A stretch of DNA of 64,000 nucleotides from Antedon bifida (Eukaryota > Echinodermata > Crinoidea > Comatulida > Antedonidae), in contig OY727094.1 of NCBI GenBank assembly GCA_963402885.1, positions 7,814,501 through 7,878,500 on the forward strand. Direction: 5' to 3'. Below, in pieces: positions 3,417 through 48,600 of the stretch (the stretch's first letter is position 1; each line of letters starts with the position of its first letter). The position numbers and the translations under genes are program-made. Below the pieces are notes generated by a model. That model saw nothing but the letters and a program-made list of their open reading frames with translations. It did no database searches and was not told where the DNA came from.

Positions 3417-4043
3417 ATGGCAGAAAATGTAACCTGGTTTCCGGTACATCCTGTTCCATCATCATCACCAATACAAATCGATGAATGGATAGAAAGTTTA
3501 ACTGTGACGTCATGTATTCTGTCAGCAATTGGATCCATATTAATTATTTTAACTTTTATTATTTGGCGCGACCTCCGAACAAAAACACGTGAACTTCTTG
3601 TTTATTTATCAGTTACGACCTTCTTTGTATCGGTTAGTTATGCCTACGGGATAATTGAAGATTTCCATTCCAATCCTATCGGATGTACTGTACAGAGTGC
3701 CATTACAACGTTCTCCGAGACCAGCTCTTTTTTCTGGACTGTTGCAATTGCGATTTACCTCTATGCGCTAGTGGCACAGTCCAGTCAGGTTGTGATGAAT
3801 AGGCTGGTGTGGTTATTCCATTTTGTCTGCTGGGGTGTTCCACTTATAACAGTGATTGTTGCAGTATCTTTTGGTGCTCTGGGGTACGATGATTCGTATA
3901 CATCCGTAGGGTGGTGCTGGGTCGACTTGGATGTGAAGCACAGGATTATGTGGATGTTGTTGGTTGGTAAAATGTGGGAAATCGCTTCATATTTCATCCT
4001 ACCTCTTCTCTATATCTTAATCAAGAGAAAGTTCAAAAGATTT
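3417..4043 (+). CDS. GPR157: GPR157 exon 1
   Basis: This exon encodes 209 codons, from MAENVTWF to the end of the fifth membrane segment and the basic KRKFKRF. The donor is TTT|GTGAGTAA. Reading past the donor gives only a short unrelated extension, which supports splicing here. Confidence 0.93.
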
Positions 4044-9526: not shown

Positions 9527-9570
9527 GGCTAGCCTACATCTCTGCTCTGAAATGTAATATTGGCTCTAAT

Positions 9571-9704
9571 GCTTGGTTCTCACTAGTGACGCAACACAAC
9601 GACGCAACGCAAGGGATTTGACCAATCACAAGCGATGAATTTATTTGACGGTCGCTTGTCATTGGTCAACTGGTTTGCGTTGCGTCCTAGTGGGAACCAA
9701 GCTT
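9571..9704. mobile_element. Family B inverted-repeat element
   Basis: GCTTGGTTCTCACTAGTGACGCAAC on the left is the inverted complement of GTTGCGTCCTAGTGGGAACCAAGC on the right, about 134 bp in all. The centre has GACCAATCACAAGCGATGAA. No coding capacity: a MITE. Confidence 0.85.
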
Positions 9705-10022: not shown

Positions 10023-10110
10023 AAGCTTGGTTCCCACAGTTCGCATAATCCATCGCTTGTGATTGGGCAACTCACGTCCTTGCGTTGCGTCCTAGTGTGA
10101 ACCAAGTTTT
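10023..10110. mobile_element. Family B element, short internally deleted copy
   Basis: AAGCTTGGTTCCCAC on the left and GCGTCCTAGTGTGAACCAAGTTT on the right enclose a shortened core with CATCGCTTGTGATTGG. Confidence 0.75.
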
Positions 10111-11402: not shown

Positions 11403-11930
11403 GTAAGATATTTATTTTTCATTTAGTAATTCTTCTAATAATTTTTAGTAATTTTTATTTTAACAATTTAATTTTTTGGCAAGCAACCGAGATACAATCG
11501 ATGTTGTTCAATATACGACTGCGATTTCACACTGGTGTTTGTATGAATGTAACCTGTACTTCTATTCTAACAATATTTAGGTAGATCAGTACGTTCGCCT
11601 AATTTACGGGCCTGATTTTTCGTGAATTATTGGGCTACTGTCCCTGTGTTACAATTTAGACTGTATTTTTATGTTAGTGAAATCACAACATTTGAGATAT
11701 TGTCCCTCCCTACGTGAGCGCAGTCTGTCGATATTACTTTAAAATGGCAAACATTATTTATTATAAAGAAGATTTTTTTAATGCATTGCATATTATAATC
11801 TCTTCGTGTAAATTGTACATTGCTATCAGAGTCTAGTAATTTTCGTCGCCTTCATCAATCTTTTTAACGTACCGTATATTTTAGTAGAACCCATGTAAAG
11901 TTGACACCTTTGGGCTCAAAACAAGTGTAC

Positions 11931-12143
11931 AGCTTGTTTCTCACTAGGACGCAATGCAAGTTCGTAAACGCAACGCAAGGACGTAAACGCAACGCAACGC
12001 AAAGACGTAAACGAAACGTAAGGACGTAAATGCAAGTAATTTGACCAACAAAAAGCGATGGATTATCTATCGCCGAACAAACCGCTTGCGTTGCATTTAC
12101 GTCATTGCGTTGCGTCCTATAGCGCCAGCGGGAACCAAGTTTA
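11931..12143. mobile_element. Family B inverted-repeat element, 55 bp upstream of a coding exon
   Basis: The left end is AGCTTGTTTCTCACTAGGACGC and the right end is GCGTCCTATAGCGCCAGCGGGAACCAAGTTT. Inside, CGCAACGCAAGGACGTAAA is repeated several times. It is non-coding and sits in intron 1 of the secreted-protein gene. Confidence 0.75.
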
Positions 12144-20684: not shown

Positions 20685-21674
20685 TTATGGAGTTTCATCT
20701 TTGTTCTTTGTCCTAAAAACTGACAATACTTTACTTTTACCGCTGAGGGTCTTGCTTAGTTTACGCGCTTTCTTCTTTTTAGCATCATGAACTGGTTTTG
20801 GGGAGGATGTAATAACCGTCTTCTGCGGTGAGTTATTCTCATTTACTTTCTCATTTACTTTCTCCGAGCTGGTAAAAACGTCATATTCCACAGCATCGGA
20901 TCGAGTCATCGAAGCTCTGTTTTTCTTTTCGTCTTTTTGTTCTTCGATTTTACCGTTGGACACTTGACCGTTTTTTACCGGAGAAGTGGGAGGGGATGGA
21001 GCATCATCGCTTAAATCAGCGTCTTCGTCGCTACCTGATCCAGGGACGTACACGGCTTTGAATTGCCCGTTAATTAATTCATCTTCTTCGTTAACGCTGC
21101 TCGGTGACTCCTCTGTCACTGATGTTATGGATGCAGATGGTTCCGATATCACGCCTCTTGATTTAGCCAACACGTCCCATCTTTGTTGCAAAATTGGATT
21201 TTCAAATGCGTTATCATTCCCTTCTCCTTCTACATTTGCTGAATCAAGCGAAGCAGTGAGCGGTAATTTGTTGCGCTTTTCATCTGTTTCTCGATCACCT
21301 TCACTCTTATTACGGCACGTTTTGAAATCAGCTTTTGCTTGAAGCGATGTAGGTGGCACGACTGTTCTATTAGGAATGAATGATTCTGGTTCGCTAGTAT
21401 CGGAGTAGTCGTCATCATCGTATGATGACGGAAACATAATATTTCCACTGTGCGTTGGTAAAGGACTTGATTCAGAGGAAATACTGTATTGTCCCAAGCT
21501 TGAACTGTCGTCTAAACCAATATTCGGTGTCACAATGACTGTGGGAAGCGGTTCTGATTCCAGGAACTGATCTGGCGTCTTTGGATCTGAACTGTCTGGA
21601 ATTACGGTTGGAACTTTCGTGACCGATTCATAAATCTCATCAGCATCTTTGGTACATACGTCTTTATACATTTG
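20685..21674 (-). CDS. PLEKHG5: RhoGEF last exon (329-residue tail)
   Basis: The acceptor is TTTCTATAG|CAAATG, phase 0, then one open frame to the TAA at 20685-20687. The region is acidic and Ser/Pro/Thr-rich (for example YDDDDYSDTSEPES) and so probably disordered, with a basic end (KKKKARKLSKTLSGKSK). It ends NKDETP, so I do not see the C-terminal PDZ-type ligand of human PLEKHG5. An AATAAA on the minus strand about 55 bases past the stop (20626-20631) could be the poly(A) signal. Confidence 0.9.
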   Translation of the reverse strand, partial: QMYKDVCTKDADEIYESVTKVPTVIPDSSDPKTPDQFLESEPLPTVIVTPNIGLDDSSSLGQYSISSESSPLPTHSGNIMFPSSYDDDDYSDTSEPESFIPNRTVVPPTSLQAKADFKTCRNKSEGDRETDEKRNKLPLTASLDSANVEGEGNDNAFENPILQQRWDVLAKSRGVISEPSASITSVTEESPSSVNEEDELINGQFKAVYVPGSGSDEDADLSDDAPSPPTSPVKNGQVSNGKIEEQKDEKKNRASMTRSDAVEYDVFTSSEKVNEKVNENNSPQKTVITSSPKPVHDAKKKKARKLSKTLSGKSKVLSVFRTKNKDETP

Positions 21675-24600
21675 CTATAGAAAAAGGAAATAAATTAATT
21701 TATAAAACATGGAGCTATAAATTTCTGTTCACACTTGGGAGACAAATTCACAACACATAAACATCTAAAAGAAATTCCTATCAATAACACTGTATCGCTT
21801 TTCTTTAGTTTTTATTTAGTGACAATGTAAAAATTATTCTACTTCAGTTACTACATATTTTTACTACAATAAAATTTTATTTGTTACAATGAAGACCAAA
21901 TGTATTTTATTCAAGGTCCTCAAAAAAGCTTGAAATAATTGCAAAACAGGTTAAAGAGTAAACAAAATGTAGTAAACTGAAGTTGAATAATTTTAGTAAA
22001 CACCTGTGTCATATTTACTTAAGCTTAGCATTACTCTAGAAGAATGTTGAAGTATAATAACCAAAATGTTGAGACATCCACAACTTTACCCCTATTTCCC
22101 AAGGAACTAACCAGGATAAAAATCGAGTTGACTTCCAGTTAACAACTGTACATAACAACCAAAATTCTAGTTATAAATTGGTTTTAACTGTAACTTGTTA
22201 AATTTAACTAAATTAGAAATTTACTGGAAATGTTTAAAATACCAGTTAAAACTAGTTATTTACTAGAATCCAGTTCTACCAGTTGAATTAACTAATTTTA
22301 ACTGGAATTTTATAACTGGTTTAACTGGAATTTTATAATTGGTTTTTCAACTGGAATTTCCACCAGGGTATGTTGTACTGTGAACCTTACCTATAATAAA
22401 TTAATATGACTGTGGTTTGGTTGAATTATTGGGCATTCTCTTGATATATAAAAACACATTTTTTCAAGTCTACCTATCTACCTATGGTTTCATGCAACGT
22501 ATGTTGAATAGTGGTAACATCCTTGTTGCTTGTGTTTGCAAACATATGCTCCATAACTCCAAAATGTATTGTAGATGGAGAAGCATTCTATATACTTAAG
22601 TTTAGTTTTATGGTTTATAAGTTTATTAATATGGATGATATTTCCGAAATAAAATGAAATTGAATTGAATTGAAAGTACCTTTGCCTTCTTGATACATTC
22701 CAGCCATTGCTTCGTTGCTAACCCTGATTGCACAATAAAAGCTGACACTGCACATCCATACTCATCTTCATACACCACCGCAAAACCACCTAAAATACAT
22801 TGTTTACAACAGAAACATAAGTAAGTTGACTGTCACAGTTTGGACAACAATGGAAGAAAAAAATGCAGGAGACAACCGTGGAAAAAGAAATTCCTCTGGA
22901 AGTGACTGTGTGACAACAACCTTAGTTTTTTATTGAATTAATAAATAAAAAAGTACCAATATTATTACAATTGCAAAGCTCTGTCTACACTATCAGACTA
23001 GTTTGTAATGTGCCCAAATATGGTAGTGATATGCCCAAATATAGTAGTGACATCACCATGTCCTTATTTGAGCACATCACATTTTTTGTCACATAAAGTT
23101 TGATAGTGTAGATAGAGCTTAAGGATACATTTACTCTATTCTGTATATTGTACAGTATATATGCTGCGAAGGATGAAATAAAATTTATCTGTTTCTGTAT
23201 ACTTACTTCCATCTTTCAGAATCATAGTCTGCAAACGATCGATTCTCATTGGTTGTTTAATGACCTTCATTTTAACACTGGTTCCTTTCTTCAGAGATTT
23301 CTTTGTGACAAGTAGCATATCAGTAAAAAGTAAACCTGTGGCATCCACCTATCAATACAATGTTTTCATTTAATTCATTTAAATTCCATTCATGCACTAC
23401 CAGTGGCGTAACGCAGAGGCCTTAGGCTCCTGGTTTAGGAACCCCAAGTAGAACACTGGAGGCCTCAAATGTTTTTAGCCTTTTTTGACATATTTTAATG
23501 CGTTTTTTTCCTCTAGGCACTGCTCAGGGGCCCCCTATTAGCCAGTGAGTGCTCATAGACGTTACGCCACTGTACATTACTACCTCTATGTTGCATTATT
23601 AAATGTACAGTATCAACGTACGTGAAATCAAGAACTTGTATTGGGTAATCATCAGGAATAGTCCTGAACAGCGAGATGAGCGCCCCTGCCCACCGATGAG
23701 TTTCGGGATCCCTTTGACCCGGAGGGAGAGTACCCGTCAGGGTCCCTACCAAGGGTTACAGGTCCCACGATTTTAATTGTTTTTAAAATTAATTAGTGTT
23801 CCATGACCTTCTCATCAAAATTAACGTCTCTCATTGTTGTGCTATGTCAACATAATGTCAATGACGGCGAAATGTCCCCAACAATGGGGATAGCTATGAA
23901 AACAAGTAAGTAAGTATGTATTATTTATACCTTTTTGTTTTCCTGGTCTTTTATCTTCAATGGTCCCTCAAGAATCAACCATCTTACTTGGTCTGGCATT
24001 GCATTTGGCATAGCTGACTTCAGATTTAAGGCTTTCAGTGCCAACAACTACATAAGATAAAGAAATATTTTATTATATTTATTTTAGCCTCTCTATGTAT
24101 AGAGATTTACACACTTTATTATGTGATATATAAAACTAGCCATGTTTTACTTAATTAAGCCTGTTTTCTACTAGGCAAATTGAAAGCATCAACTAAAAAA
24201 AACAAATTGTAACCAAGTTTGCATAGTGTGAAAACAATTTTGAGGAAAATCTTTAGAGATTTCACAGGGGTCCCTTGTGAAATGTTGAGAAAAACACACC
24301 AACTAGAGGCTGCGTTTTTTGTTTAAAGATGTCCCGATTCAGTACTACAGTATATGCATGTGTAATTGCTCTGGTAAATCATAGTAATCAAATAGTGCCC
24401 AACTATAATTCCTCTTGGTCAAAATTGTTACAAGTTCTAACAATTTGTGAAGATGTGAAGGATATACTATATGCATGTTTAGTACCAAATCCATTTCTGC
24501 GATAAATTTAGGTTCCTTCGGTCTGAGATTGATACCAATCCAATTACTAGAGCTGTTCTGCCGTACCATGCTAAGGGTGTTAGAGTCGCTATCCAATCGA

Positions 24601-27600
24601 GTTTGAACAATACCATGAAAGCCCCAGTGTCTAATGGTTAGGAAATCTGCATATCAAGCAGAAGGTTCCAGGTTCAAATCTCAATTGGGGTGACTTTTTC
24701 TCATTTTCACAGGTTTCCTCATCTTTATTGTATAAATTAGTAGACTAATATTCAGTATATCACAAGCGGTTTAGATTTTGTTTAATGCCTGTTAATTTGC
24801 ATATGTTACCTGAGTCAACTCATCAGTATTGCATGAGTCAACGATATCGCATGACTCGATTCTTGAGGCGACTTCTTCAAGACGTTCTAACTCGTGATCC
24901 TTGCGGACTTCGTGGTTTACAGATCGGATGAACGAACCTACTTCTGTCTCCTTGAGAAGAAAATGTTGTTTAATATCATATGTATTATGAGAAAATGACT
25001 AAAGTTTATTAAACTAAATTTCCCAAGGCAATTACAGTATCACACCATCTATATTTTATATTATATATACTTCTTAATATAAATAGTGCCCTGGAAAAGT
25101 AATACTGATTGCTTATTATTGTTTTTAAATCTTAAAATTCTCCTTATCCAATTTTTCTAATCGTCAAATCTTTCAAATCATCAAATCTTTCTAATTATCA
25201 AGTTTTTCAAATCATCAAATCTTTCATAAAAAAATAATCAAATATTTAAAATCATTTAATCATCAATTTATTTTAAATTCTAATCATCAAATCAGTTTAT
25301 TCATCAAATTTTCAAATCTTTCTAAATCATCAAATCATCATTTCTTTCAAATCATTATTTTATAAATTCATTTTAACCATCAAATCAATCTAATCTTTAA
25401 ATCTTTCAAATCATTTCTAATCATCAAATCTTTTCTAATCTTCAAATCTTTCAAATCATTTTTAATCACCAAATCTTTTCTAATCTTCAAATCTTTCAAA
25501 TCATCAATTCTTTCAAATCATTTCTAATCATCAAGTCTTTCAAATCATTTCTAATCATCAAATCTTTTCTAATCTTTCTAATCATCAAATCTTGTTAATC
25601 ATCAAATCATTTTTACCCTTTGCTTCACCAGATCCTGCACATCTTGGTCCTCTTCCTTCTTGCCGACAGCACCTAACAACAGTGGATACTTTGTTAACCT
25701 TTGCATAGGTGATACAAGTAACTCGGCTAAGGACCGCCTCTCACTTTTTGTATGCTGTTCACACCACTGTGAAAAAACAAAAACAAGTTGCAAATGGCTA
25801 CAAGCAGATATGAATATTCTCTACTCTATTACAGTATTTAGGGTAAACTTTCCTGTGAAACGAACGAGGGAAAATGTATATTGTAACAAAACGGCTAACC
25901 CTTATTCAGGACACTGCCCTATTAATATGAAACTTTCCTGTGATATAAGCAAGGTGTTAATACATGTTTTAACATCTATTCAAGGGACATCCCTAAAAAG
26001 GCCATGTACTGCCGTAAGACCAGTTTACACAGACAAGTGGCAACGGTAAGCGGAAAACCATGTAGGTTGCCCCACGTAGAATCTGTATCTATCATGAGTG
26101 GAAACCGCCCATCAGCTCCGCGTTGTGTAAATGGTCATAAGGAATAACATAGATAATATATTTTTATTACTGTTGTCTATTGCATATTGCTCTTTCTGCT
26201 GATTTCAATGTAAATTACTTACGTCTACGAACAGTTTAAATGCGTCATTCTCTTTTTGTTTTTCCCTGTGATAGTGCAAACATTTTTCTTCTTCTCTGCA
26301 AAATTTATTATATGGGTAAAAGCGTTCCTGGAACTATGAATAGAATGAGAACATGATTTAATTATTATTTCAGAAAAAATGTCAGTAACAGTAGTAATAA
26401 TAGGAAACTGAGTGAAATATAATATATCAGGAAAAACTATATTTGGAGAGAGAGGGCTCACTACTTAAAATTATTGTTAAAAGAATACAAAGGGGGTGCT
26501 ATTTAATATCTCGTATGGAAGATTTTGAATGCAACTCTTACTGTTTCAAAGGCTTTGGCAATGTCGACGGGGGAGAGAAGACTTTTTGCTGTTCTGGCAT
26601 TTAGGAGTACATCATGAAGACACTCTTTGTAAAATTTAATATGCAAATCCTGAATATCTCGTATATTACTGAATAACTTCTCTGAATCGATCTGAGAAAA
26701 TAAAACAACAACGAAATCTCAAAGCTAAAGAAATATTATGCATTTCAATACAAAATGTAATGAAAAAAGGAGAGTTTTGAAATCTTCAAATACTCTAACC
26801 ATTGTGAAAATAAAGTTATGGGTGTAGTGTATGATGGTTTAGGATGATTTATAATCGAATAATAGGAAATAAAAAACAAATTAAAAGATGAAGGTATAGT
26901 AATTTCATCATAGAGCTTAATTGAAAACTGAGGAAATTCGGATTAAGCCCTCTATGGACCCACAGTAGCCAGCAGTGCAGCGCCTACCAGATCAGCAAAC
27001 CGGGAGACAATATCCTACTTTTTTTGAATAGCGAATGTACTAAGTTCAGCTCATGCCTATCACATGCTAGTCCAATGTGATTATCATTACATCATTACTC
27101 TATGGCACCTGAAATAATATTCCCATTGCTGAACTTCTGTGATATGACGAGAACTGGTGTTTCAACGCAGTATGGCCGTATTATGACTTGAAGATAAGTT
27201 TATTTATTAACAATAAATCAATTAATTTTGGTCAGAAAAAACCCTCAAAACTTACCTCGCACAAAATTAAATGCTGTTGTACATTTAGAAGAACTGATAA
27301 AAAAAGCTAAAAGTTAAAAAAAAAGACAATTATGTTACTTTAACTTCATATTTTCAGTTATTTAAAATTTAAGATATGGTTAATGAATATTATAGTTAGG
27401 TGAAACATACATGTCACTTAAACTTATCAAACTTTATGTGACAAAACAATGTGATGTACCCGTATATGGACACAATGATATCATATCACTACCATATTTG
27501 GGCACATCGCACCTTTTTGTCAAACTAGTTTGTAGACAGAGCTTTAGAAACCTTAAAGATGTATTGTCCCCCTGAAAAAATAATTCTTAACAAAATTTTT

Positions 27601-30600
27601 GTTGAATATGCCATTTTAATGTAACAAAATAGTTATCCACTTTGACCAAAAATTGGATCGAAAAAAAAAAGGTATTTACCTGAAAAAACTGTAATTTATA
27701 GCAAAAAATGGTCAAATTGGCTGCCAGCCAATGGGTTTTTGGTTGAATTTAACCATTTGTCATTTTATAAGTTTTTTTTCTACTGAAGTGATTAACTTTA
27801 TTAAAACTACACAATAACATATTAAAAGTCTGATTTAATTAATCTTCATTTTTCATGTTTTTGGGGGACAATATATCTTTAAGTTTTAGACACCTTTATG
27901 CACACTGCCTGCATCGTTCAGAATATTCATATTTTTCTGTGATTGTGAGAAGAAATTCATGAAGGATGTTAAAGACAACACTTACATCCACAATAATGTT
28001 CAATTTCTTAAGGTACGATGCCTCGGTAAATATAATTTCCCACATGGCTTCTTGTTGATCTCGTTGTTGTTTGGTTAACGCTGTTGGGTCTCCACTATAA
28101 ATCTCTTTCCAACTCTCCTCCTTAAATTTAGAAATTAAGAATCTTAAAAATGTCCACCAAAAAAGAAACGGCAGAGAGATTGACCTCATACTTTTCTTGA
28201 AAGGTTGCCTAAATTTCTAAAAATTAAATTCATTGCAATACTAGCTAGCTAATTCATCAAGCTATACACTTATATTATTTAAAGTTACAGATAAGATAAA
28301 CAAAAGAATATCTACAAATTACTCAGCCAGGCTCTTCTCAACGAGCTACACTAATGCATCTAAAAATTAATGATGCGTGTCAATTAGAATAGCCACAGTT
28401 GAGCCAAATCGAGAAGTGTCATTGATCTCAAATGAGATTCTGTAATCTGAAATAATTTTTCAATTGCTGCAAATCCTTTTATGCCCTCATTGGAGGATTC
28501 AAATTATTATTGTATATTTTATTGTTGCTATAGTGATATATATAAATATTTTTGTTATCTAGATGGATATAGAACTAGATTGGCACCTTCAACTTGAATT
28601 GTGAAAAAAAAAAATTATATTTATATTATATATATATATATATATTATATTGTTCTTCATCAGGTTTCTGTTATTATTTTTATATTCTAAATTGAACAGA
28701 TAGTGGACATTTTTTAGAGTCTCTGTCCTGTTGACATCACATCATGGTCACCTAGTTCTTAGTGTGTCTATGGTTGTCCATATTTTAGATTATTTCTATA
28801 TAAATTACAAATTAAAAGACGTTTACTAAGTAATTTCAACGTTTCGGTATCGAAATGTCAATTTTTTTTCTTTTTGTTAGTAACTTTTGCATTAACAATA
28901 TTTTTATATACTAAATATATATATAAATCCAAAGGCAAATTACTGAAAAAATGACAATGCTGTGGGTATCAGTGGCTGGATCTCAATGGAGATACAAAAA
29001 AAAGCGAAAAGCAAAACGATAAAGTAAAACAGCCAGAAAAGTTAGCAGAGCTTTCGGGCAATATATCAACAGATACAATGGTCCCTGTTCTATTGGAATC
29101 ACTGCATTGACTAGTTTTCCATGTCTATGGTTTATATAAAGTGCGGTACACCGTAAGAAGTCTTAAACAGCTTTCATTGTCATCAGAAAAAAACAAACAT
29201 TTATTCGTCTTGTATTTTTACGGAGACGAATAAACTTTCTGGTATGTAGTTTTGAAAAGCTTATTGAAGTTTCAGTCAATGCTTTCATCAGGATAACAGT
29301 AAAAAAATAATACATTGATAATTTTGCAATTTTCTTACAAGTTCTAAAAGTCCTGAAATGTCTTCTTTTTTCCGGTTGAATGAGAGCAATGCCGGAAATT
29401 CCGGAAGACCTTCTTCCATATAAAGCTGAAGCTTGTCCTCCAGCTCTATAAGGCGAATATCCTTAACTTCCTGAAAATTCAATTCATAATTCTTATTAAC
29501 ATAGGGAGTTAGTGGACTATTTTTTTAAAAATCATCAAAATAGTTGTCAGTTATGCCATAGCAATGCAACAGGAATGAATATTGTTAGCAGATTTTTACA
29601 TAAAAAAATATATCATAATTTCAATTAAAATGCATAAAAATACAAAAATGCAATCTCTGGTAATATTCTAACCATATATTTTTTACAAAAGATGAATTAA
29701 ATCATTTTGATTGTCATTTTCCATCACTTTGCTATTGGCAAAACAAATTTTAAATTAGAATAAATTTAAACAAGTAGCATTAAATCAATTTAAATAAATT
29801 TATTCATTTTAAAAATCAAAGAATATATTATCAGCACGATGTTACATACTTACTATTTCTTCTGAATCAAGTGTAAATTTGTTAATTATCCCATATTAAA
29901 TTAGTCGATTAAGTTTTCTAAAATCTAACCACATGCAAAGTATTTTTTTTTAAATTTAGAAGTTAGTTATTATTTTACCAAATGGAAAAAAAATTATTGA
30001 AAATATGTGCATTAGTTTTATTAGGAATCGCTCTAAAATATTAGTCCACCAAAATACAAACCTGTCAATTAAACCGATTTACGCAGTAGGACACTGAGCA
30101 GTTCGCACTACTTTTTTTAAAATTTATTACAATTCTTTTTTTTTTTCAAAATAAAATTTTTTAGTTAACAAGATTTTATACAAAGAGGTAAAACAGAAAA
30201 AGCTTCAAAATTTGTACGTAATTGTAACATTTGTGTACAATTTAATTTTGGAAAGGTACATACTTAAATGATGGGTTTAGAGACCCAACAAATAAGGTAG
30301 GCTTTCACATGGATAACGTAAGAAATACTGTAGTTTTAATGCATGGATAAACAACATTTCTAAAAAACAATATTTTAGAAATATCAATATCAAAATATTA
30401 AATCTCAAACCTTGCCATAGATAAATATTTTCCAATATAAAATATTTTGTAAACTATTTGGGCATTTATTAAATTTTAACCAGCGCAATACTTTAGTATT
30501 AACTAAAACAGCCTATGATACAAAATTATTAAACTATATGACTACTTTGTGCAGTGGAAAATAAAAAGTGTTGGCATGCTGTGAGAAAGTGCAGAAAAAA

Positions 30601-33600
30601 CAAATCTTTGAATTTAACGAAAAATGAAATTGACAATAGAAAAACAAAAGTAAACATAATTTGTACAAAAACAGTAATGAAAACATCATAATAAATTAAA
30701 ACATGACAATGTTTTGTATCTCAATTTAAGCAATCAGTATTTCATGTTTTTATGTCTGGATTTTAAAGTCTAAAATATTTCACAATAAATGTTATTAACA
30801 TTACTCTGGATATCAAAAGTCTGGATATTCTAGGCTAGGGTTGAAGTACCTGGAAAGATAGGTATGTAACTAAACATACCACATGAAAAAAACATCTTTA
30901 ATTCATATATAAGTTTTTGAAAATAACACAATTTTGCTTGTAAAAAGTGATTTTATTATATATTTTTTATGCTTTAGAGCAGACAACACTAAAAAAAAAG
31001 CAACATTTTATAAACATATCAAGATGTGCTTTTTGATAATATAATAGCAAAAGTCAAATTTCATTATTGATTTTAAGCTACCAGATGCACTAATATGAAA
31101 AATCAATCCCAAGCAACTATTCATAGCCGTAGGAAGTATAAGCATTGAGGGCGATTTGCAGTAGATATTTAAAGCGTAAATTTAGTTGGAACTGAAGAAT
31201 GACTTGAGTTTTAGATCTGTGACAATTAATTCTAAAGAAAAGTTTGATGACGTCGTAACATGATGCATAGAGTATGTGTAATCCTAGGACATAAAATCTA
31301 ACAAAATTCTGTTAACACAAAAAATACTGACCAATCACAATGAAGAAAATTTAGACATCAATTGAATAAAAATGTGCCTATTTTACGAGTGTTAGGCCTA
31401 CTTTCTGTTGGTCCTTTGCTCATCTAGCCAGATGTTCCAACTTGGAAAATATTGGGAAACTTTTTAAAGGCTGTAATCAATGCATTTTTTGGCTTTTATA
31501 AAAAAAAAATCAATAAAGCTTGGTTCTCAGAATACAATGCAGGGACGTAAGAGCAGTGAAAATTTGAAAAATGCCACCGCCCATCATGATTGGTCAAATT
31601 ACTTGTATTACTCTTATATCCTTATGTTGCATCCTAGTGGGAACCAAGCTTTTGTAGAATTTAAATATAGTTAATACATGGTTGTAGATTTACTAGTTGT
31701 CACGGATCTAAAACTCACTGCCATTTCAACAAGAAGCCAGGATATTTTTCCCCACGGCTACGTAGTATCTTTAAAATGTAAAGTGCTATATGGCGAGTTG
31801 CGAATGATAAGATATGTTATCATGAGAACATCCGGTGCTGTTAGATTTTTTTGTTTTTTTGTATTGTTTGAGGAGCTATCGGTACAAACCTTAGGGGACG
31901 AATTGCTGGAAAAGTTCAGAACAGGGAGTGAGACTCTCCTAACTGCGGGGGAGTTGCTTTCTGGGACTGGCAATGAAGCGATGGAAATTGTCGACATACC
32001 AAGATGGGTGAAGATGTCTTTTCTATGATATTGTTGCTGAAATGTAAGACAGATATTGTACTACATGCTAAGAAAACAGACAAACTTCCTATTTATAAAG
32101 TAATTGTTCATGTTTTATGGATTATACTTGTATTCTGCAATGTAATCTTTTAAATTAATTGAACATCCTCTCAAATTAATGTGGTAAAAATAAAAACAGA
32201 AGAAAAAATTATTAAATACAAAACTACAGCACACCTATCTTATTAATAAATTCATATTTATAATATTTATATACAGTATTATTAACATTTTCCAATTTGA
32301 AAAAAAATGGTTTTTCTGCATAAGGAATCAATTTTATTTAAAAATCTAATTTATAATATTGCAATTTGTGTCCTTGCCTTTGTGTTTATTTCATCTGAAT
32401 TTAAAATTTCTAGAAATTGAAAAAAAATAAAGATCGGTGGTTCAATAATGACGATATGTTTTTGCTTGATGTTTATACCAAACTTATAACGATATTTTAA
32501 TAATATTGAATATTTTCAAATTAAATTATAAGGTTTAAGAATGTAAGTACCATCGTTGTAGTGTGGCTCATATTTTTCAGCCTTTTTATTTTGGATTTGG
32601 ACAGCAATCAATTTCAAATGTGCAATTGTATTTACTAAACTAAAATGCTATATAGCTTGATTTGAAACCATAAAGATTTTGAAGAATTTTTTTAGGCCCA
32701 CAAAATTGTTAATTCTTAAAGTTTGTCTGTTTTCATAAAGAACAAGATTAAAAAAGGATATCTGAAATGAAAAAAATCGACATAATCCAAAGAAATGAAG
32801 AAAATGATATAAAAGACGGTATAGAAAAACATCATAGGAAAAACATAAGTATAATATATATTCCACAGCACAGCAAGACTAATTGATGATTTGGAGTAGA
32901 GGAAGGTGGTCTGCACGCATTATTTTTTTCTCAACATGTTATGGAAAAATCATAAATAACGGATGAACATAATTATTTTCATGTAAGAATCGCAAGATAG
33001 CTTTATCTACCAAATAACTATCAACATAGCAAACCTACTCAGCTCTAATAAAAACGGCATATGAGTTTAAAACCCGGGTGTCAGCTTTCATTAACATTAA
33101 CCATTAAGCAAACTAGCTGCTTGCAAAAAAGCGTTCTCATTACGTAGGTCTGAGCGCCCTCTGTAATCTATGCCATTTAGAAAATATTTATGTTCATTCA
33201 TTATACTGTTCATGTTTTTTGGTTGTTTTGCCTCAACATGTTGTGAAAAAAAACCCAATATATTATATTGATTTCACATCTATAATCTAGGCAAGAATAA
33301 TACTTTTTTCTTCAGTAGATAATCGCTAAGGCAGATCCCAATGTAAAGCCAATTATTAAAACCATGAATATTGATTTTTTTAAAAACTTATTTTAAAAGA
33401 AATTTGTAATAAGATATAATATTAAAGAGCTCAAAGTTTTAATTTGAATATCATAGTAATACTTCCAAATAACCTATATACCAAGAAAACCAAGATATTA
33501 AATTTATTATTATAATAAAAATCCTTAATGTAATTAACATTTACCCAAACTATACCATGTAATATAAAAACCACAAAAAAAAAAAAAATGAAATAAATCC

Positions 33601-36600
33601 TTAAATATAATTTTGATTTTATAACACAAAAAAAAAAAATTGTAAACTATTAGATTCATAAATATTATTAATAAAAAACGGTGGTATTGTGTTTTTGTTA
33701 GATTGCATTTAATATTTCTATGTTAATAGAATACAATTACATGCAATTTCATTAACGATGTTACGAGTGAGTGCTACAAACTTGTGACCCAACTATAGGC
33801 TTAATTTAATGCAATTTGAGTCACATTACTACTAATTGGTGAGAAGATATCAGATTATTAGGTTCTAATATTATTGAAGTATTAATTAACTTATCTACAT
33901 AATTAAATTTGTATAAACTAATATAAAATATTAATTTTTAATTCTACCATGCATGCTTAATAAAAAACTATATTAAATACAAACATCATTACTATAAGTA
34001 AAATAAAATGTTTAACAATTTCTGAAATATAAATCGCTAGACTTTTTATTTTCCACAAAAAATTACTAAACGATGTATTGAATTTAGAATAACAAAAACT
34101 TTTTCTGTAGCATGTTTCTTTAATGCTCATGACCAAAAAATATGGTATAAAAACATGGCTTCAGTTCAGTAATGTCTGAAATAAAGGCCATGTATTAATT
34201 TTGAAATTAGGCAACTCTGCCTCCGGTTGGCTGAAAAAAAATCTAGGCCACAGGAAAATTCAAAAAGTATTTAATCTCAACACAAAAAAGTAAGCAGAAA
34301 ACCTTTTAACTTAATTTTACAGAGATAAAATCACTCTGGTCTGAACACAAGTTTTAGATAGATATAGATTATTTTCACATTTATTGGAATATACAGAATG
34401 TACATTAAATACCCAATATACACACTAAACAAATTCTTGTCATTTGATTGGATGATTGAGGATCACATGGCATGCAATAATCAATATTAATTTTTTGCTA
34501 CTGTTACATTTTTGTTATTCATATTCATTTCATTTCATTCAGGCAATTGGTGAATTTTATTTTTATGTTATATTTCATGCATTTGCAATATGAGAACTAC
34601 AGTACAGAACTAGATGGTTTAAAGAGTAGCTCCGGATTTTCTATTATTTTATAAACCTTTCTAACAACATGATGATGATAGCCCAACTTATTTTTCGACA
34701 GCAATGAAGCCAAACAATTATGAAAACAATATATATATATTGTTTTCTTAATTTTATATCAAAAGAATTTAAATTAACATTTCATTGTACTTGCCGAAAA
34801 TAATTGGGGTTACTATCATTTGCAATGGTTTAGATTATATAATAAATAATAGAAATCTTAAACTTGGAGACCATTTAAGAACTTAAACAAATTTAAAAAG
34901 ATGAATCCATATATATATATATATAAACCTCTTACTCTAATATTAGTATTTAATTATGGAAAAAAAAAAGATTAAGAAAAAAAAAATTTCGAAAAGTCTT
35001 ACTGCTGGTGGGGTAATTCCGAGATGGCCAAAAATATCTTTTCTGAATTTATATTCTTGACCATGGTCAAGCGACTAGTTAGAAAGGAGAGAAGAGAGGA
35101 AAACAATAAATCAATTCCTTTATTATGGAGAAGAAACATTATAATTACAGTACAAAAAACACTGTTTAAGACAAATTAAAATCCTTTGGAATATTCCAAC
35201 CAAAAGTTGTAAACAAAATTTGTTATAATTTTACATTATAAAGATTTTAAGAACTTTTAATTAAAAAAATAAAATTTATATTTTTTAAAATTGCAGGGCA
35301 ATACTGTACTTTTAATATTACTATTAAGACAATGGAGAAATTTTACAATCAAGGTGGATTTAAAGGTATGTGAAAAAAGGGGAATATAAATAGAAAAAAA
35401 ATAATGGAAAAGTAATTAGGAAAAACCCGGAAGGAGATGCAGGGATAAAGTTACCTGACAGATACTGAGATAATTAAAAACTAAAATTACATGGAATAAC
35501 GATTTGGAACACTACAATTATCCGGGAGGAGATATTGGGATACACCAATTTTCAGGAAGGAGATACTGGGATAAACCAATTATCCGGGAGGAGATACTTG
35601 AATATCACAACTATTTGGGAGGATATTTTGGGATACACAATTAACCGGGAGGAGATATTGAAATACACAATTATCCAGGAGGAGATATTGAAATACACAA
35701 TTATCCTGAAGGAGATACTTGAATATCACAACTATTTGGGAGGATATTTTGGGATACACAATTATCCGGGAGGACATATTGGGATACACTATAATTATTG
35801 GGAGGTGGAATGCACAATTATCCAGGAGGAGATTTTGAGATACAGTACCATACAATCACCTTGAAGGATATACTAGGAGGCACAACAAAAACTACCCCAC
35901 ATCAAAAAACCCACGGCACATTTTCCTCAAACAACACACAAATTACATTACTATTCTTAAATTACTGGGTTGGGTATGGTAAAATCAAATATTATTTTCA
36001 AACTTTTACCAAAACAAGAAACTTCACTTCAGTATCACAAGAAACTTCACTTCAGTATCACAAGAAAACATCTTATATCTTTCATGATCATTATTATTTT
36101 TTTTTAATTACCAAAACGAAAAAAAAATCACAAAATGTCCACTGCATACAACTCTCTGATAAGTAAAAGCAGAACATACCGCATGCAAAATATTTTTATA
36201 TACCAAGGATAATTGAATCAACAATAAAAAAAAAACAAAAAAGAAAAATAATAATGAAGATGATAAATTTGAATACAGTATGCAAAATGATGAATTTATT
36301 TGTGACAAAAATAAACAATACATACATAAAATGTGTATGGAAAAATAAATAAAATAAAAGAAATACCATACTTTTAAATAATTCTTGTTTGATTTAATTT
36401 AAATTTATAATATTTGTTACATATTGAAATTAAATAATAAACATGTAATGTATAAATTGTATTGTTCTGAGGATAACCAATGGACCACTTTCATTAAGTG
36501 TAGTTGAAATAAAATGAAAATGTTTAAAAGAACATAAGAATATCAAACACACAGCAATGCACACACACACATTTGGTACAGCATACATGCAGGCAGTACA

Positions 36601-39600
36601 AACACACATAAAACATTTATGTTTAAAAAATCACTGCAAATCATTCCCAAGAGAATAAAAAAAGTGTGAGAAAAGGTTGTTCAACTTCAAGTATGAAAGT
36701 ACTGTAAACTCCAAATATGTGGGTATCCTTTGATCATTTGATTGGCTAATTTTTTGTCTAATTGCCATTTGATTGGCTGACTTTTTGTATCCTTGCCATT
36801 TGATTGGCTGACTTTTTGTATCTTTGCCATTTGATTGGCTGATTATTTGTATACTTGCCATTTGATTGGCTGATTTGTTTGTATCCATGACATTTGATAA
36901 AATGACTTTTTGTATCGTTGTCATTTGTTTGGTCGATTTTTAGTATCTCGACGTACCATGCATTATTTTCTTCCAAGTTTTGCTATTTGTAAATACTTTG
37001 AGCGACGCGATTGGTTGGTGAATAATGCACAACCAATCTGTAAAGCTTGGTTCTCACTTGTACACAACAATGTAGGCACAATGCAATTGAGTTGACCAAT
37101 CACAAACACTGTGTTGAGTTCACGTGGGAACCAAGCTTAAGGGATCCACCTCATGGCAAATTTCAGAGAGCATTCGACAACAATCGTTTCAAGAGTGAAA
37201 TGCCGGATCAATTGAATAAAATAATTTACTTAAGGATAGGTTTGTAAAATAATATAAAGTTATATTTTATATTCATTGAATGGGAATAATATTTTCACTC
37301 ACTGAAAGCCTGACTGCTCTATTAGTCTGGGTGTATAATCCTTCACCTCATGAAAATATTAATTCTATTCAACTTTAAAATACAAACATCCACGATGGTA
37401 TTTTTTTCATTTATTGGAGTATGAATATACTTTTGTACCTGAAGTTTAACCACATTTTTATTTTTTGAGAAATCTTGATGGAATAGCTTGAAAAAAATTG
37501 TGTTAGAATGAAGATATTTTAGAAGACAAAAAAGAACTCTTACAGGATGTGGTGCGATACCAAGATGACCAAAGATATCCTTTCTGTATGTTTGACCGAA
37601 CTCGGAATCTGACTACATTGAAGAAGAAGTGAAGAGAAGTATATATACAGTGAATTATAACAAATACAACAAATATTAGTACATTTCATATAACACCTAA
37701 CTAAAGTCCTGTTATTTGATTGGACGATTGAAATATGTGTGCAATGGTACAAATAATTGCATGAAAGATGAACTTGGAAATAGAATTTCATCTTTCATGA
37801 AATTATTTGTACCATTGCACTCATAAACATTCAATATTTGAATACAGGTGCACTCTATAAATAGGGACATTTTAATTGCATGAAGTGTCAGGAGACTATT
37901 GATGAAGCAACAGGGTATAATGAATTTCTTTTTAATTTCTGTGCGTCATGTTTTGCATATCAATGCATGTGTACAAGTCAGGTTTGTATAGATTTCCATT
38001 GCCATCACATCTATGCAAACAAATCAAGTTGTTATTTGTTGTTGATTAAGTGATGAAGACCTATAACAACACTAAATTGACTTGCACACAAGCCTGTACA
38101 AAAATGTTTACTGGGGTTCTTTTTTTCCACAAAATGGAAAACATCGTAAAGAGCTGGACTAATTATTTAACATCTCTTTAGTTTCAGGAAAAACGAAGAT
38201 TTGAACACTCGAACCCCAAAATCTCTTTGTATAGTCTCTTTTGGTGAACTCCATCATGCAATTAAAATATCCTTAATAGCATTACCATACCACAACATCT
38301 GATGTTTTCACAAAATGTGGTGATGCCTGGTAATGAATGCTACAGCATACTTTATTAGTGAGTTTAGGCCTATAGGATTTATTGGAAATTTGTTAATAAC
38401 TTGGCCTGGTGCCAAATTGAAATAAATCAGTCAATAAAGAATTTAAATTGGATTCTTTATTAATAGCTGAAAATGCCTTCTTGCAGCCAATTACTGTAAG
38501 GAAATTTTAAATTTAATATTCATGTAATATAAATTTCATTAATTAAAAACAAAATTCCTCACTATAGGCCTAAATTGTATTATTTACCATCACAAATACT
38601 TTGATATTAGTATACAAAGCCATATTTTAATTCATTTATCTTCATATTATTACCAGATAAATAAAAGCATTACAGATACAGTAGAACTCCTCATTTGGGA
38701 CACCCGTTATTTCTGAGACACCTCTATTTAAGGGCCAACCTCTACTCAAGGGCCAACCTCTACTCAAGGGCCAACCTCTATTCAAGGGCCAACCTCTATT
38801 CAAGGGCCAACCTCTATTCAAGGGCCAACCTCTATTCAAGGGCCAACCTCTATTTAAGGGCCAACCTCTACTCAAGAGCCAACCTCTATTTAAGGAACAA
38901 CCTCTATTCAAGGGTCAACCTCTACTCAAGGGCCAACCTCTATTTAAGGGCCAAGCTCTACTCAAGAGCCAACCTCTATTTAAGGGCCAACCTCTATTCA
39001 AGGGTCAACCTCTACTCAAGGGCCAACCTCTATTTAAGGAACAACCTCTATTCAAGGGTCAACCTCTACTCAAGGGCCAACCTCTATTTAAGGGCCAAGC
39101 TCTACTCAAGAGCCAACCTCTATTTAAGGGCCAACCTCTATTCAAGGGTCAACCTCTACTCAAGGGCCAACCTCTATTTAAGGGCCAAGCTCTACTCAAG
39201 GGCCAACCTCTATTCAAGGGCCAACCTCTATTTAAGGGCCAAGCTCTACTCAAGGGCCAACCTCTATTTAAGGGCCAAGCTCTACTCAAGAGCCAACCTC
39301 TATTTAAATGCCAACCTCTATTTAAAGGCCAACCACTATTTAAATGCCAACCTCTATTTAAAGGCCAACCTCTATTCAAGGGCCAAACTATATTCAGGGA
39401 AATTTTGTTGGGCAGGTGTAATTTTAATAGAAGTTCTACTGCACAAAATATACTGGTATTTGAATAATAGCTGTTATAAAAAAAGCTTTTGTTAATTACA
39501 GTCATTTTTTAAAAACAATATGGTAAACATATTTAAATCAATACAGACATTTTTGTTTGTATCTGGTGGCTGTTGAAAGCCATTTGTTTAATATTTAAAT

Positions 39601-42600: not shown

Positions 42601-45600
42601 TTATCTGTGTTGCAGGGAACATGTAATTTGTTAGAAGATCTAAAAATAACAATAAATGAGATTTTTTGAATGATTTGAGTCTATGTGCAAATAGGATTTC
42701 TCTTTTAATGTTATTGGAGATGTAATCTGATGTTTTGTTTACTTCAAAAGATTCTAAGTACATTTTAAAATTGAAGTTTGACATAAAAAAAAAGTTCTTC
42801 TAATAACAGACCTACAGCAAAGAATAAATAGCAGATTCCATTCATATTGTGTATACTGAATTCTTGAAAAGAGTAAAACGATTTCATCATGATACTTTCT
42901 GATATCCTTTTATTGGTAGAACCTTTGTTTTATTGAAACTTTATTTTTCATTCAAAATTATAAAATGTATACAATATTTGAAATCACTCACAATACTTTT
43001 GTCAGTGTCTCAAATCTCAAATTTAAAACCAAGAAATATATTTAACAAAATTAAATAATTTAAAAAATATTAATTATAATTTAGTACCTTTATACTTCAT
43101 TTTAAAAATGTTCACAACTTAACTTAGATATCTATACTGAATATCATTTGCATGCTATAAACCATCAAATAAACTGAATATATCTAATTAATGTTGAGTT
43201 TATTCTACTGCATTTTGGAGGTGCTTTGGATAACTTTATACCGAAGTGTGTGATTTGGTGTGGAGTTACACACAGTACCAATGTTAGTCCCATATTAATT
43301 TGTATTTGAACAAAAATTTAGTCAACAACAACAATTCATCAATGTTAACTGTTTGTCTTATAATACTTAATGTAATATAATTGTAAAAAATGAAATAATA
43401 AATAACATTATGTGTAAGTAAAACTTAAATAGAAATTATTTTTATTGATACTATACCTAACACTAAATTTTTGGTTGTGCCAATATATATCTACTTATAT
43501 TTATTATTATTATATAACTATTGTCTACTTACTGTACATAATTCAAGAAATTGAATAAACTAAATATAAGTCAAATCATCTATCTTAACTGCTTATTTAA
43601 TTTACAGGGTATAAAGCAATAATTATTGTATGTGTGGTGATAAAACTAAAAAAATAACTTTATATTGTATTTTTGCTAGATAATAATTATAAAATAATAA
43701 TTATTAAAATAAATACAATAATAGCATGGAGTAAAAATCCTTTACTTGATGATAATAATTTAAAATTCTGAAATGCAAGTAGAAGTTGTTATATATGATA
43801 ATAATCTGTGAAAAAAAAACCAAATTAAACTTGATTTTATATATTTGAAATAAAATCTAAAGAAAAAGTAATTGTTGTACTTACGTCCTTATCATCCCAG
43901 GCCTTCATGTTGCGTAGAGCTCGTGGCCCGACTGTTCGTCGTCCGTCACCTATTGCGGAATCTTTCCTTTTAGCTGAGAACGAGTATAAAAATATATGTT
44001 TTCAAAGATTTGCTACTAGCAATTAGACATTGTCTCTGTATGTTCATTTTCTTTTAACGAAAATATGCATGTTCTGATATAAATGGTAAAATGGTATTTT
44101 TCTGTTTTATTATTGATACCAATACACCATAAATATAAATTGTACAGTTTTTACAATGTATTACAATTCTTATTTTCATAAATCTATATGTCCATAAAAA
44201 TGTAGTTGTGGTAATTTCTTAAAAGCAACATTTGTTATTATTGTGACATGAACAATTATGAATGCAAGTTTTTTTCCTAATAATACGAAAGTCGTGCAAA
44301 AACTTCAGTAAAATAATGAAAACATTATTATTAATAAATCCGATTTTGAATAGGCAATTTTGTAGTTTTAATAATGCAGAAAAAAACCCCAAACTAATGT
44401 TTTCACTTAAAAAAAGACAAAACAAAATTCAACCAAAAACCCATTGGCTGACAGCCAATTTTGTTATGGGACAAATTAAAATGGCATATTCAAAAAAAAT
44501 AATTTAAGCAATTTTTTTTTCATTTATTTTTCTATTGAAGTGAATAACTTTATTAAAATTGCAAAATGGCCTATTAGATTCTGATTTTATAGATTTTTAT
44601 TTTCCATGATTTTTGGGAGTCAAAGGGAGGAAAAGTGTGCATGCCCTATAATAGTTCTCCATGTCCATAATAGTACGCTCAGACTCGCGCAGTTAATCTA
44701 ACGATGATGATCATTGGTCTTGCTGACATTATGTTTAGTAACTTACAGCGAATGTATATCTTTTGACCTCCAAGATGATAGCTGGGAATTTCCAATGGTA
44801 GAGGTGAGGATGAAGACTCCAGAAACACTTGTATATTGTTAGTGTTGATTTTACGGGTCTCGCACAACGGTTGAATGGCTTCCCTTAAATAATGGAGAAA
44901 AAAAAAGATCACGTAAAAAAAAGATATTCACTTTGATTAAAACAGTAATTGGCAAAAAAAAAAAACTGTAAGCCTAAAAATGAATAATGTTATTGGACAA
45001 AACACAAAAACCTGTGGAAACAACCATCTATTCTATTATAGCCATTTCAAGATATAAAATAACACTGTATTGGAACTCTTCCTCGCACGGCAGCCCAAGT
45101 ATATAAAATAACTATACTGTACATCCATGGCAAACATGGAATACTCTGTCTACACTATCAAACTATTTTGACAACAAAAATGTGATATGGTAGTGATGAC
45201 ATCATCACATTTTCATTTTTTGTCAAGATTTTAATCATATTTTTTTCTATGCAATATCTTGAATGTTGAAATAAAGAATTTTGTTTACTGAAAGAAACAA
45301 GTTAAAGATTTTCTTGCATGAGGTCAAAGGTTATTTCGGAAGACTTTCAGTGACAAATCCATTTGCCCATTATGCTCGAGGGCACTGTAAAGTCAGTAAT
45401 TTACAATTTAGAAAAAGATGTCATTAGCAACATGTTATAGTCATAGGCATGCCATTAAACACCTATGGAACAGTGATTAAAAACCCCCGAAGTGGAATAA
45501 TGAAGTATAAATACGCACATTCTGGATGCGAAAATCATGCGGTGACCGACGCGTAACTGGGTGAAAAATGACATTCAGCACGGTCTTTAATCATCTAAAG

Positions 45601-48600
45601 TATGTATTCTGTTTGAACATGTCACTAAATCATCTTAATGAGTACGCTTCATTCTTCACGACTTTAATTCAAAACAACGCTTTACTAACTGTTTGATGAG
45701 ATTACATGATTTTCTTGGATTTTTGTAGGGCACGTTCTACCAAGATGCGTAGCTATAACAAACAGAAGATTGGCTATTCACAACAACATGGTTAATGTAT
45801 CGCCCAAAATAGGAACTTAAATTTACAAAATTACTTAATTAGTGATCTGGTTGCTATTTATAGACAGTCTCGGGTCTATGTGTAAACAAATAGTAAAAGT
45901 GCAAATCTTTTTTTGCAATTCTTTCATAGTAATTCCTTTCTATTTTTTTTTCAATACAACTTTTCGTTTTCACAATGCGCCCATTGTACAACTCTACCAC
46001 GAGATTTGATATTCTCGTCTTTCTGACAGGTACAAGATAAATTAAAGACACAAGAAAGAATCTACCTTTTAAAGATTAATTCTCTTTATATGTAAATCGT
46101 TTTGATTTAACTTTTCGCTTTATTTTTGTATCTCCATTGAGATCCAGCCACTGATGACATTTCTTCAGTATTTTGCCTTTGGATTTATATGTAAATGTAA
46201 TGAAACTTTTCCACGAAACAATGAAATTTGTAAATCAACTTTACGATCGGTGAATGTTGACCTTCACTATCGAGTCTCATTTATCAAATCAAAGAATAAA
46301 AAAATGTTTATGTAAATCCAGCGATAATCTCCAAATGCATGCTTTGTGCAAAAGCGGATATGGCAATTTCTGCTATTTTAACGATGAAACAGCTTATAAA
46401 TTCTCATTGAATTAATATAAAAAATTTAAATAAAAATATAAAATGCAACCAGACATTATTATTATGAAATCAATTTTTCATGAATGAAGAAATAACTTAT
46501 TTTAAATTCAATTTAGAAACTATTAATTTTTAAAATGGTATGGTTCAGTTTTAACTTTAACAGAATTTTAATTTTAAATATTGATTTGATATTAATTGTA
46601 CTGTAAGATTGGATTTCTAGCCTAGAGATAAATATATCAAAAAAATATTAGCTGTTCATTTGAGCATAATTCATATTTATTTGAGTTGAGTTTTAGTTTC
46701 TCAGGGTCTTGGGTTCAAATCCCGCCAGATGCCACCTTTTTCTTTTCTCATGACACAGACTTTTTAAAGACTCAAAGTTAGAACATACTTGAACTATTAG
46801 AGCCTGTCCAGACCTACAGTACAGTACAGGAGCTTTCATATTAAATTTTACAAGGAAAATATGGAATCCACCTGCTAGGTACAATATTTACAATATGAAA
46901 GTCATGCATCAACGATTTTGACCAGCCAGTCACCAACCATTCAAATTTATTCCAACAAGTCAGATTGTTTCCTCGATCATCAACACTTTAGTTTTTAACG
47001 AAAGCGTTATAAAATCAAATATAAAGAACATTTTTCTGTTACGAGACTAATTATAATGTGACCTTGCTTTACGATACAAAACCAACTGTATGTTTGAATG
47101 TACTCTTTAATCAATAGATTTTTCTTCTGAATATCTATATATCTGGAGATAAACATAATTGTCTAGGCCTTGAATAATAGCTTGGTTTCATTGTGACTCC
47201 ACATAAGAAGGGACAAGCAGAGCTAACAGTACTTAACCTCAAATCTTAAGCTCTTAGATTTAAAACCTCTTAGACCTACAAAAATTATACCCTGTTGATT
47301 TGTCCAAGGAGAAAGGAAATGAATGTCGGACAAATGAATGACTTAATAATTAATACATTATTTGAAACACTTTTTAAGCATTTAACCTAACATTACCAAT
47401 GATTTTAGTGTTTTTCTAAGTTTTTCCCAAGTGTGCCATAACTAAAGTTGTTTGTCAGCAGTCAATAAAATGTTACTTGTTACTATACCATTTTACCTGA
47501 ACAACATTATCAAAATAAAGATTATTATTTTGAGAAAATTGGAGAAAATGTGATGGTGGAATAGAAACAATTTCAGTATGAACTTCTGAATCAGCCACCC
47601 CATAACCTCCACCACCCAACCTTAAGCTCTGTCTACACTATCAAACTAGTTTGGCAAAGTGTGATGTGCCCAAATATGGTAGTGGTATGCCCAAATATGG
47701 TAGTGATATGACATCATCATGTCCATATATTGGCAAATTACCTTTTGTTGTCACATAAAGTTTGAAAGTGTAGACAAGGTTTTACCAGCGTACATGCTGG
47801 TTATGTATGTGAAAGAAGAAGAAAAAAAGAACCCAACAACCACCAACCTGAGAGATTTGTTTTTTATTGATTGGACTTTCACGACTTCTTTAGCTCCCAA
47901 GATTTCAAGGTCCACATGGAAAAATTCTCTCATACGCTAGAAAAAAAAGGTCGTAAAATGTCATTTTAAGAAAAAAAAAATCAAATTTAATGAAGAATAT
48001 ACTTATTCAAAAAAGTGTATAAATTGTTCATGAATTTTAAGCAAAATGCGTCTAATGTGTAATTATGGATTTTGAAAGTATAATTTCATAATAGTCAAAA
48101 TGATGAAAAAATGGTGCAGATTTATGTACCTGGCTAAACATAAGCAGAAAAATGACAATAATTTGCAACTTTGAAAATTAATTGTAGTGATTAAAAAATA
48201 CATTGACAAATATGATTAATTGAAAAAAAAATGAATTGATTATTATTATTATTATTTTTTGAAAAAGCATTTAAAAAAAATGTAGTTACTTTTGTTTATT
48301 TGTTATATTATAAATTAATTATATTTTAAAAACTATATATATGATTCATATTAAAACCTCTATATTTTTTGTAAATTGTCATTAATTTTAATAGGTTTTT
48401 TTTATCCAGAATAAGATAGTTTGATAGTCAGATATAAATTGTAAAAAAAGTTATTAAAATCAATTTATTTACAAGTTTATAATAAAATTCTATACATTTA
48501 AAAAAATTATTTTAAATCATTTTATATTTAGAACTATCTTTTTTTTTTTAAATTAATATTATATTCTGTACCTTCTGTACCAGACATTGAAATATTTTAT

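Follow-up and report, generated by a model that had tools for sequence, protein, structure and literature searches.

The locus and its three motif exons

The window examined in this work is the whole 64,000-nucleotide stretch of the genome of the crinoid Antedon bifida that spans positions 7,814,501 to 7,878,500 of contig OY727094.1 (assembly GCA_963402885.1); coordinates given below are counted from its first nucleotide. Its minus strand carries a gene which is, judged by its sequence, a PLEKHG5/Syx-like RhoGEF. Three small exons of this gene, designated A, B and C in the order of transcription, lie one after another in the linker between a Raf-like RBD and the DH domain, and each of them encodes a copy of the same ten-residue segment.

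On the evidence of translation and splice sites, exon A (37544-37612, minus strand) comprises 23 codons (69 nt) for SDSEFGQTY-RKDIFGHLGI-APHP (SDSEFGQTYRKDIFGHLGIAPHP) and exon B (35003-35074, minus strand) 24 codons (72 nt) for SLDHGQEYKF-RKDIFGHLGI-TPPA (SLDHGQEYKFRKDIFGHLGITPPA). Exon C (31890-32036, minus strand) is a 49-codon exon (147 nt) in which QQYH-RKDIFTHLGM is followed by a Ser/Pro-rich linker (QQYHRKDIFTHLGMSTISIASLPVPESNSPAVRRVSLPVLNFSSNSSPK). The cores translated at these coordinates read RKDIFGHLGI in A and B and RKDIFTHLGM in C. All three lengths are divisible by three, both ends of each exon are in phase 0, AG stands directly before each exon and GT directly after it, and none contains a stop. 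The intron between A and B measures 2469 nt and that between B and C 2966 nt; if all three exons are included, successive motifs stand 24 and 18 residues apart. The first-pass annotation of this DNA, made from the letters alone, had the coordinates, lengths, phases and spacing of the exons right, as their translation and AG/GT ends confirm, but the flanking pattern that it gave, [YF]-x-RKDIF, fits C only (YHR), the residues before the core being TY-R in A and KF-R in B.

The splice sites were scored with a generic matrix, the frequencies of which were set by ourselves. Among all AG of the strand, the acceptors of A, B and C stood at the 97.3, 99.3 and 97.5 percentiles; among all GT, the donors of the three stood at the 94.2, 93.6 and 92.1 percentiles. 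These values fall within the range of the other scored exons of the gene (acceptors 94.9-99.9 apart from the pre-DH exon at 70.8, donors 91.9-100), a comparison that excludes exon 47848-47936 and the acceptor of the first DH exon.

The threefold occurrence of the core is far above chance. When the window was scanned with a profile in all six frames, exons A, B and C scored 50.3, 50.3 and 46.7, the next best place reaching 22.0. The genome from which the window was taken comprises 27 contigs with 315,563,634 bases in total; a degenerate DNA pattern for RKDIF-x-HLG matches it exactly three times, at A, B and C, and the same pattern reversed, as a control, never. Among 20 simulated windows the 9-mer RKDIF-x-HLG did not occur and RKDIF alone occurred once. 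A chance match was rejected on the strength of these three results. The protein of exon A used as a query against the same genome (E up to 0.001) returned just itself and did not report B and C, so this search is insensitive to diverged copies.

Structure of the host gene

The exons of the gene were sought by tblastn with an unverified human PLEKHG5 sequence; minus-strand hits were examined, and the collinear ones stood amid weaker scattered hits. The RBD hit extended over 44742-44888, pieces of the DH domain started from 28120, 27306, 26703, 26333 and 25766, and later pieces from 24941 and 23348. All exons described here are on the minus strand, and we give them in their order along the gene. 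A basic exon (52505-52583; ..KLKRKAVIKRRNTE) with splice sites stands first; it is placed in the gene by its position and join phase, and we take it to resemble the stretch preceding the RBD in human PLEKHG5. The RBD follows in two halves. The second (44747-44883) was recovered by tblastn (E 0.001) and by Pfam RBD, while the first (47848-47936; RMREFFHVDLEILGAKEVVKVQSIKNKSL, donor CAG|gttggt) came from a targeted search against an unverified human fragment, in which it shared the top score of 26 with a variant ending at 47833, the next candidate scoring 23. Without this exon the match to Pfam RBD has 19.5 bits, which is below the cut-off; with it the match has 31.9 bits. The linker exon 43885-43973 (KRKDSAIGDGRRTVGPRALRNMKAWDDKD) has a phase-0 end that allows an in-frame join to A, B or C, and these three are followed by the pre-DH exon (29339-29470; EVKDIRLIELEDKLQLY..., phase 0 at both ends), a weak tblastn hit (E 2.5) collinear with KMEQLEGKLHTYS of the human query.

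The first DH exon (27986-28120; EESWKEIYSGDPTALTKQQ...) was detected by tblastn (E 4.1e-9) and Pfam RhoGEF, its acceptor just above 28120 being read by eye, and the further ones (27256-27306, 26542-26691, 26223-26333 and 25617-25766) by tblastn, splice sites and Pfam RhoGEF. Exons of the PH region, with approximate boundaries, lie at about 24810-24941 and 23208-23348 (tblastn E 0.015 and 0.005) and at 22680-22790, the last of them placed by eye. An acidic, Ser-rich C-terminal exon (20685-21674), ending in ...KNKDETP*, was assigned by position only, and Pfam gave nothing for it at E values up to 0.1.

The DH domain matches RhoGEF (PF00621) with E 2.5e-33 and 116.2 bits against a cut-off of 27.6, and N-terminal to it the Raf-like RBD (PF02196) is matched with E 1.2e-7, its 31.9 bits exceeding a cut-off of 25.7. 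The PLEKHG5-like RhoGEF gene and the placement of the motif exons between the DH domain and a ubiquitin-like domain, here a Raf-like RBD, both proposed in the first-pass annotation, are borne out by these matches. In the linker with the motifs Pfam detects no domain, and for the PH region the best Pfam match, obtained with the approximate exon join, was SOS1_NGEF_PH with 17.0 bits (cut-off 27.7). The closest match to the RBD in the PDB is RGS14 (1wfy, E 0.00076), in agreement with the kinship described for vertebrate Syx, the RBD region of which is reported as most closely related to its counterparts in RGS12 and RGS14 (PMC2928299). The nearest solved DH domain, found with a shorter hand-joined query, is that of ARHGEF11 (E 4.9e-9). 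No relatives were found in viral contigs with exon C or in prokaryotic contigs with the DH segment, as expected of an animal gene.

With the PLEKHG5/Syx/Tech family the gene thus shares an RGS14-related Raf-like RBD, a linker and a RhoGEF domain, and its exons are collinear with the human PLEKHG5 query; it differs in possessing three motif exons where that query has one weak candidate site, RKNMSEFLG. A further difference is that the C-terminal exon, as read, ends in ETP, which is not a class I PDZ ligand. Human PLEKHG5 presumably terminates in such a ligand, SEV, and the C. elegans protein RHGF-2 is described as carrying one as well, SDV. In the crinoid gene this ligand may either have been lost or be encoded on a further 3' exon.

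Selection on the core and age of the probable duplication

Over the 10 core codons, exons A and B differ by 6 nucleotides at 6 codons, and all six differences are silent; A and C differ by 7 nucleotides and B and C by 8, with 8 of the 10 residues kept and 2 changed in each pair. Third positions differ at 6 (A-B), 5 (A-C) and 6 (B-C) of the 10 codons. In simulations of random substitution, 200,000 trials for each pair, equally good retention of residues was seen in a fraction of 2.5e-5 (A-B), 0.011 (A-C) and 0.0025 (B-C), figures that overstate the case because the 10 codons were picked for matching. The selection on the peptide suggested when the exons were first noticed is supported by the combination, in A and B, of silent divergence at 6 of 10 codons with identical core residues.

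The residues directly before the core are also alike (GQTY in A, GQEYKF in B and QQYH in C), which suggests common descent and a copied unit larger than the core. At the nucleotide level the three motif stretches form a direct-repeat family (D6) of 29 nt, two copies sharing 76 and 79% identity with the reference, and this similarity is confined to the motif. In 15 pairwise comparisons the 200-nt flanks of A, B and C showed no similarity above the best of 60 shuffles. A recent tandem duplication of the exon together with its introns was considered and rejected, given 200-nt flanks that show no homology, a repeat that stops at the motif and 6 of 10 differing third positions between A and B. Since the 200-nt flanks resemble each other no more than shuffles do, the repeat is restricted to the motif and the silent sites have diverged, the duplication is probably old, and the core appears to have been held ever since.

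Interpretation of the motif exons

On balance, and with modest confidence, we read the locus as a tandem-duplicated motif exon in a PLEKHG5/Syx-type gene, in which the number of motifs, from one to three, sets the strength of binding in the RBD-DH linker. The three coding exons would all go back to a single small exon that was duplicated in tandem long ago, and they share one short linear motif, which may be written loosely as [GQ]Q-x-Y-x(0-2)-RKDIF-x-HLG-[IM]; the spacing before the core varies, and the linker around it is probably flexible. Because every join is in phase 0, transcripts can carry one, two or three motifs. Most of them would carry all three, or else C would be the regular exon and A and B cassettes used optionally, and the number of motifs would determine the avidity for one binding partner, either a separate protein or an intramolecular surface that couples the RBD to DH activity. 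A docking site to which additional copies add avidity is the most likely role of the linker motif, and the docking function raised in the first-pass annotation is plausible. In vertebrate Syx, Rnd3 is reported to bind the RBD and to restrain activity, and an autoinhibition between the N- and C-terminal parts has been suggested (PMC2928299), which makes the RBD-DH linker a credible control point.

The analysis pinpoints a segment of exactly ten residues that is strongly constrained, next to the RBD by way of which Rnd3 restrains Syx in vertebrates. The lineage with the tripled segment is a natural experiment that shows where the partner may be sought and in which the copies per transcript are measurable; beyond that, the locus is a neat example of a duplicated exon. 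A bolder version, which we offer tentatively and consider rather doubtful, is that this is an undescribed linear motif of PLEKHG5-type proteins, present as one copy in some animals and expanded here into a splice-tunable array from which cells pick one to three copies, tuning both partner binding and the gating of Rho activation. Among the matches listed in literature searches, those for RKDIF were word noise by title, and a comparable exon was described in no title or abstract opening on PLEKHG5 or tandem exon duplication.

The human counterpart bears on the same point. RKNMSEFLGE is the best-scoring place in the whole human PLEKHG5 query, and it is located in the matching linker, so the single weakly similar site that had been pointed out in the first instance holds as the best candidate, although its statistical support is weak. 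From these sequences one ancestral motif behind the human site and the three exons is plausible.

Several results weigh against the reading preferred here. The score of the human site RKNMSEFLG is equalled by 356 of 5000 shuffled linkers, and the human sequence is itself unverified. The neutral fractions are inflated as stated above, and A and B are poorly conserved beyond the core. The donor of exon C, AAG|gtttgt, is weak and unusual. A strict exon scan of 22000-64000, which demanded that both splice scores be at least 3, found 4 places and did not list A, B or C; splice strength alone is therefore insufficient to find these exons, but the same scan overlooked most DH exons, of which just one was found, and this tempers its miss. 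The search of exon A against the PDB by phmmer had no matches up to E 10 and hence gave no clue to a partner. Finally, some whole-intron comparisons exceed their controls. The direct similarity of the whole linker-A intron to the B-C intron, and of the A-B intron to the intron between C and the DH part (C-DH), beat 20 of 20 shuffles in each case, and the ungapped pairing of the A-B with the C-DH intron scored 45.0 against at most 40.5 in 20 shuffles. A 44-nt repeat (D5, 77%) has copies upstream of A and within the B-C intron, and the sequence shared between introns probably consists of dispersed repeats (D5 and D14 of the repeat list, together with a dispersed element).

The partner could also lie within the molecule in a stricter sense, the motif being autoinhibitory through contact with the DH or PH domain, with the duplication having strengthened or graded the inhibition. 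The placement between RBD and DH, the restraint and suggested autoinhibition of Syx (PMC2928299) and an N-terminal autoinhibitory region considered for C. elegans RHGF-2 (PMC3282746) agree with such a role, which we nevertheless regard as unlikely, for one motif, rather than three, would normally suffice for a single site within the molecule.

Slightly less likely again is an arrangement in which A and B, or all three exons, are mutually exclusive, so that each protein would have one motif and the flanks SDSEFGQTY/APHP versus SLDHGQEYKF/TPPA would provide tissue-specific tuning. Exons A and B are adjacent, homologous, of the same phase and of like length (69 and 72 nt), which is the profile used for the prediction of mutually exclusive exons (PMC5740500), although C is twice as long as A or B. 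Potential pairing elements are present too: a hairpin of 42 nt and 93% complementarity about 120 nt upstream of A, inverted repeats (I4, I7 and I14) with arms flanking B, and the above pairing of the A-B with the C-DH intron, better than in 20 of 20 shuffles. This sole excess pairing, however, would enclose both B and C, and the inverted repeats between the two introns (I2, I8) belong to the dispersed AAGCTTGGTT element. Among 15 pairs of 200-nt flanks no pairing rose above shuffles (z -0.8 to 1.1). Five pairs of whole introns were compared: besides A-B with C-DH, the pairing of B-C with C-DH was reached by 1 of 20 shuffles and that of the other three pairs by 9 to 18 of 20, A-B with B-C being ordinary (18 of 20).

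None of the mechanisms of mutual exclusion that we considered, namely crowding, frame, splice type (all sites are GT-AG) and pairing of the 200-nt flanks, is apparent at the locus, though distant pairing between whole introns may act there: introns of 2469 and 2966 nt speak against steric crowding, and joint inclusion stays in frame, hence there is no safeguard by nonsense-mediated decay. According to PMC5740500, exons with a length that is no multiple of three occur in 60% of the human mutually exclusive clusters, steric interference is a possibility in 9%, and secondary structure accounts for 87% of the encoded regions, unlike the probably disordered linker considered here. With the human tandem duplicated exons, which are often mutually exclusive according to PMC5740500 and PMC9741552, the crinoid exons share the adjacency of homologues, the common phase and the like length of A and B; they differ in the three copies, the identical core in two of them, the probable disorder of the linker and the in-frame joint inclusion. 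As the cores of A and B are identical, a choice between them would alter the flanks only. In the gene model every join between exon 43885-43973 and the DH domain falls in phase 0, so that A, B and C can each be kept or skipped in frame; the whole region has this symmetry, which is no peculiarity of the three exons. The splicing modes named in the first-pass annotation, namely mutual exclusion, cassettes and inclusion of all exons, differ in likelihood. Taken together, exon lengths in threes, introns of 2.5-3 kb, unpaired 200-nt flanks and the identical core of A and B make joint inclusion, or use as optional cassettes, somewhat likelier than a choice between A and B.

We consider it very unlikely that the repeats are Atg8/LC3-interacting sites (LC3-interacting regions, LIR, or Atg8-interacting motifs, AIM). 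The D-I-F-[GT]-H-L of each core fits the pattern [EDST]x(0-2)[WFY]xx[ILV] in 3 of 3 cores and nowhere else in the tested linker string, and vertebrate PLEKHG5 is tied to synaptic autophagy. Yet 10.3% of shuffled motifs match as well, the human site RKNMSEFLGEA fails the pattern, a LIR does not account for the conserved RK that precedes the core or the G that follows it, and in the literature searched PLEKHG5 and 'LIR motif' co-occur in one paper, a general review of secretion. As for other docking classes, the PP1 RVxF, general MAPK docking and 14-3-3-like patterns had no match in the cores, and a loose basic-then-hydrophobic D-site pattern matches them. Least credible of all is that the duplication left one or two exons behind as relics that are no longer used, for in spite of the weak exonic side of their donors and their absence from the strict scan, their frames and splice sites are intact and the core is unchanged despite strong silent divergence.

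Other features of the window

The introns around the motif exons contain several repeats. The hairpin upstream of A (37734-37825) is near-perfect, with 42-nt arms that are 93% complementary and a loop of 8 nt, and may be a small mobile element or possibly a splicing element. With up to 2 mismatches allowed, ends resembling GTGRGAACCAAGCTT occur 10 times where 0.04 occurrences would be expected, and several of them form inverted pairs; they are found at 9569-9583, 9690-9704, 10023-10037, 10095-10109, 11930-11944, 31516-31530, 31637-31651, 37043-37057, 37124-37138 and 51267-51281. They probably belong to a dispersed element similar to miniature inverted-repeat transposable elements, which also resides within the introns beside the motif exons. 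The A-B intron contains two minisatellites, at 35514-35789 (30 bp x 9) and 36735-36947 (31 bp x 7), and the intron upstream of A a large 18/90-bp tandem array (38720-39396) in which several frames are open, for example one of 276 aa on the plus strand; these open frames probably stem only from the repeat unit. Outside the gene, an exon of a seven-transmembrane receptor was recognized at 3405-4079 on the plus strand (7tm_2, 4.2e-13; cAMP-receptor-like, 5.8e-11), which we take to be GPR157-like.

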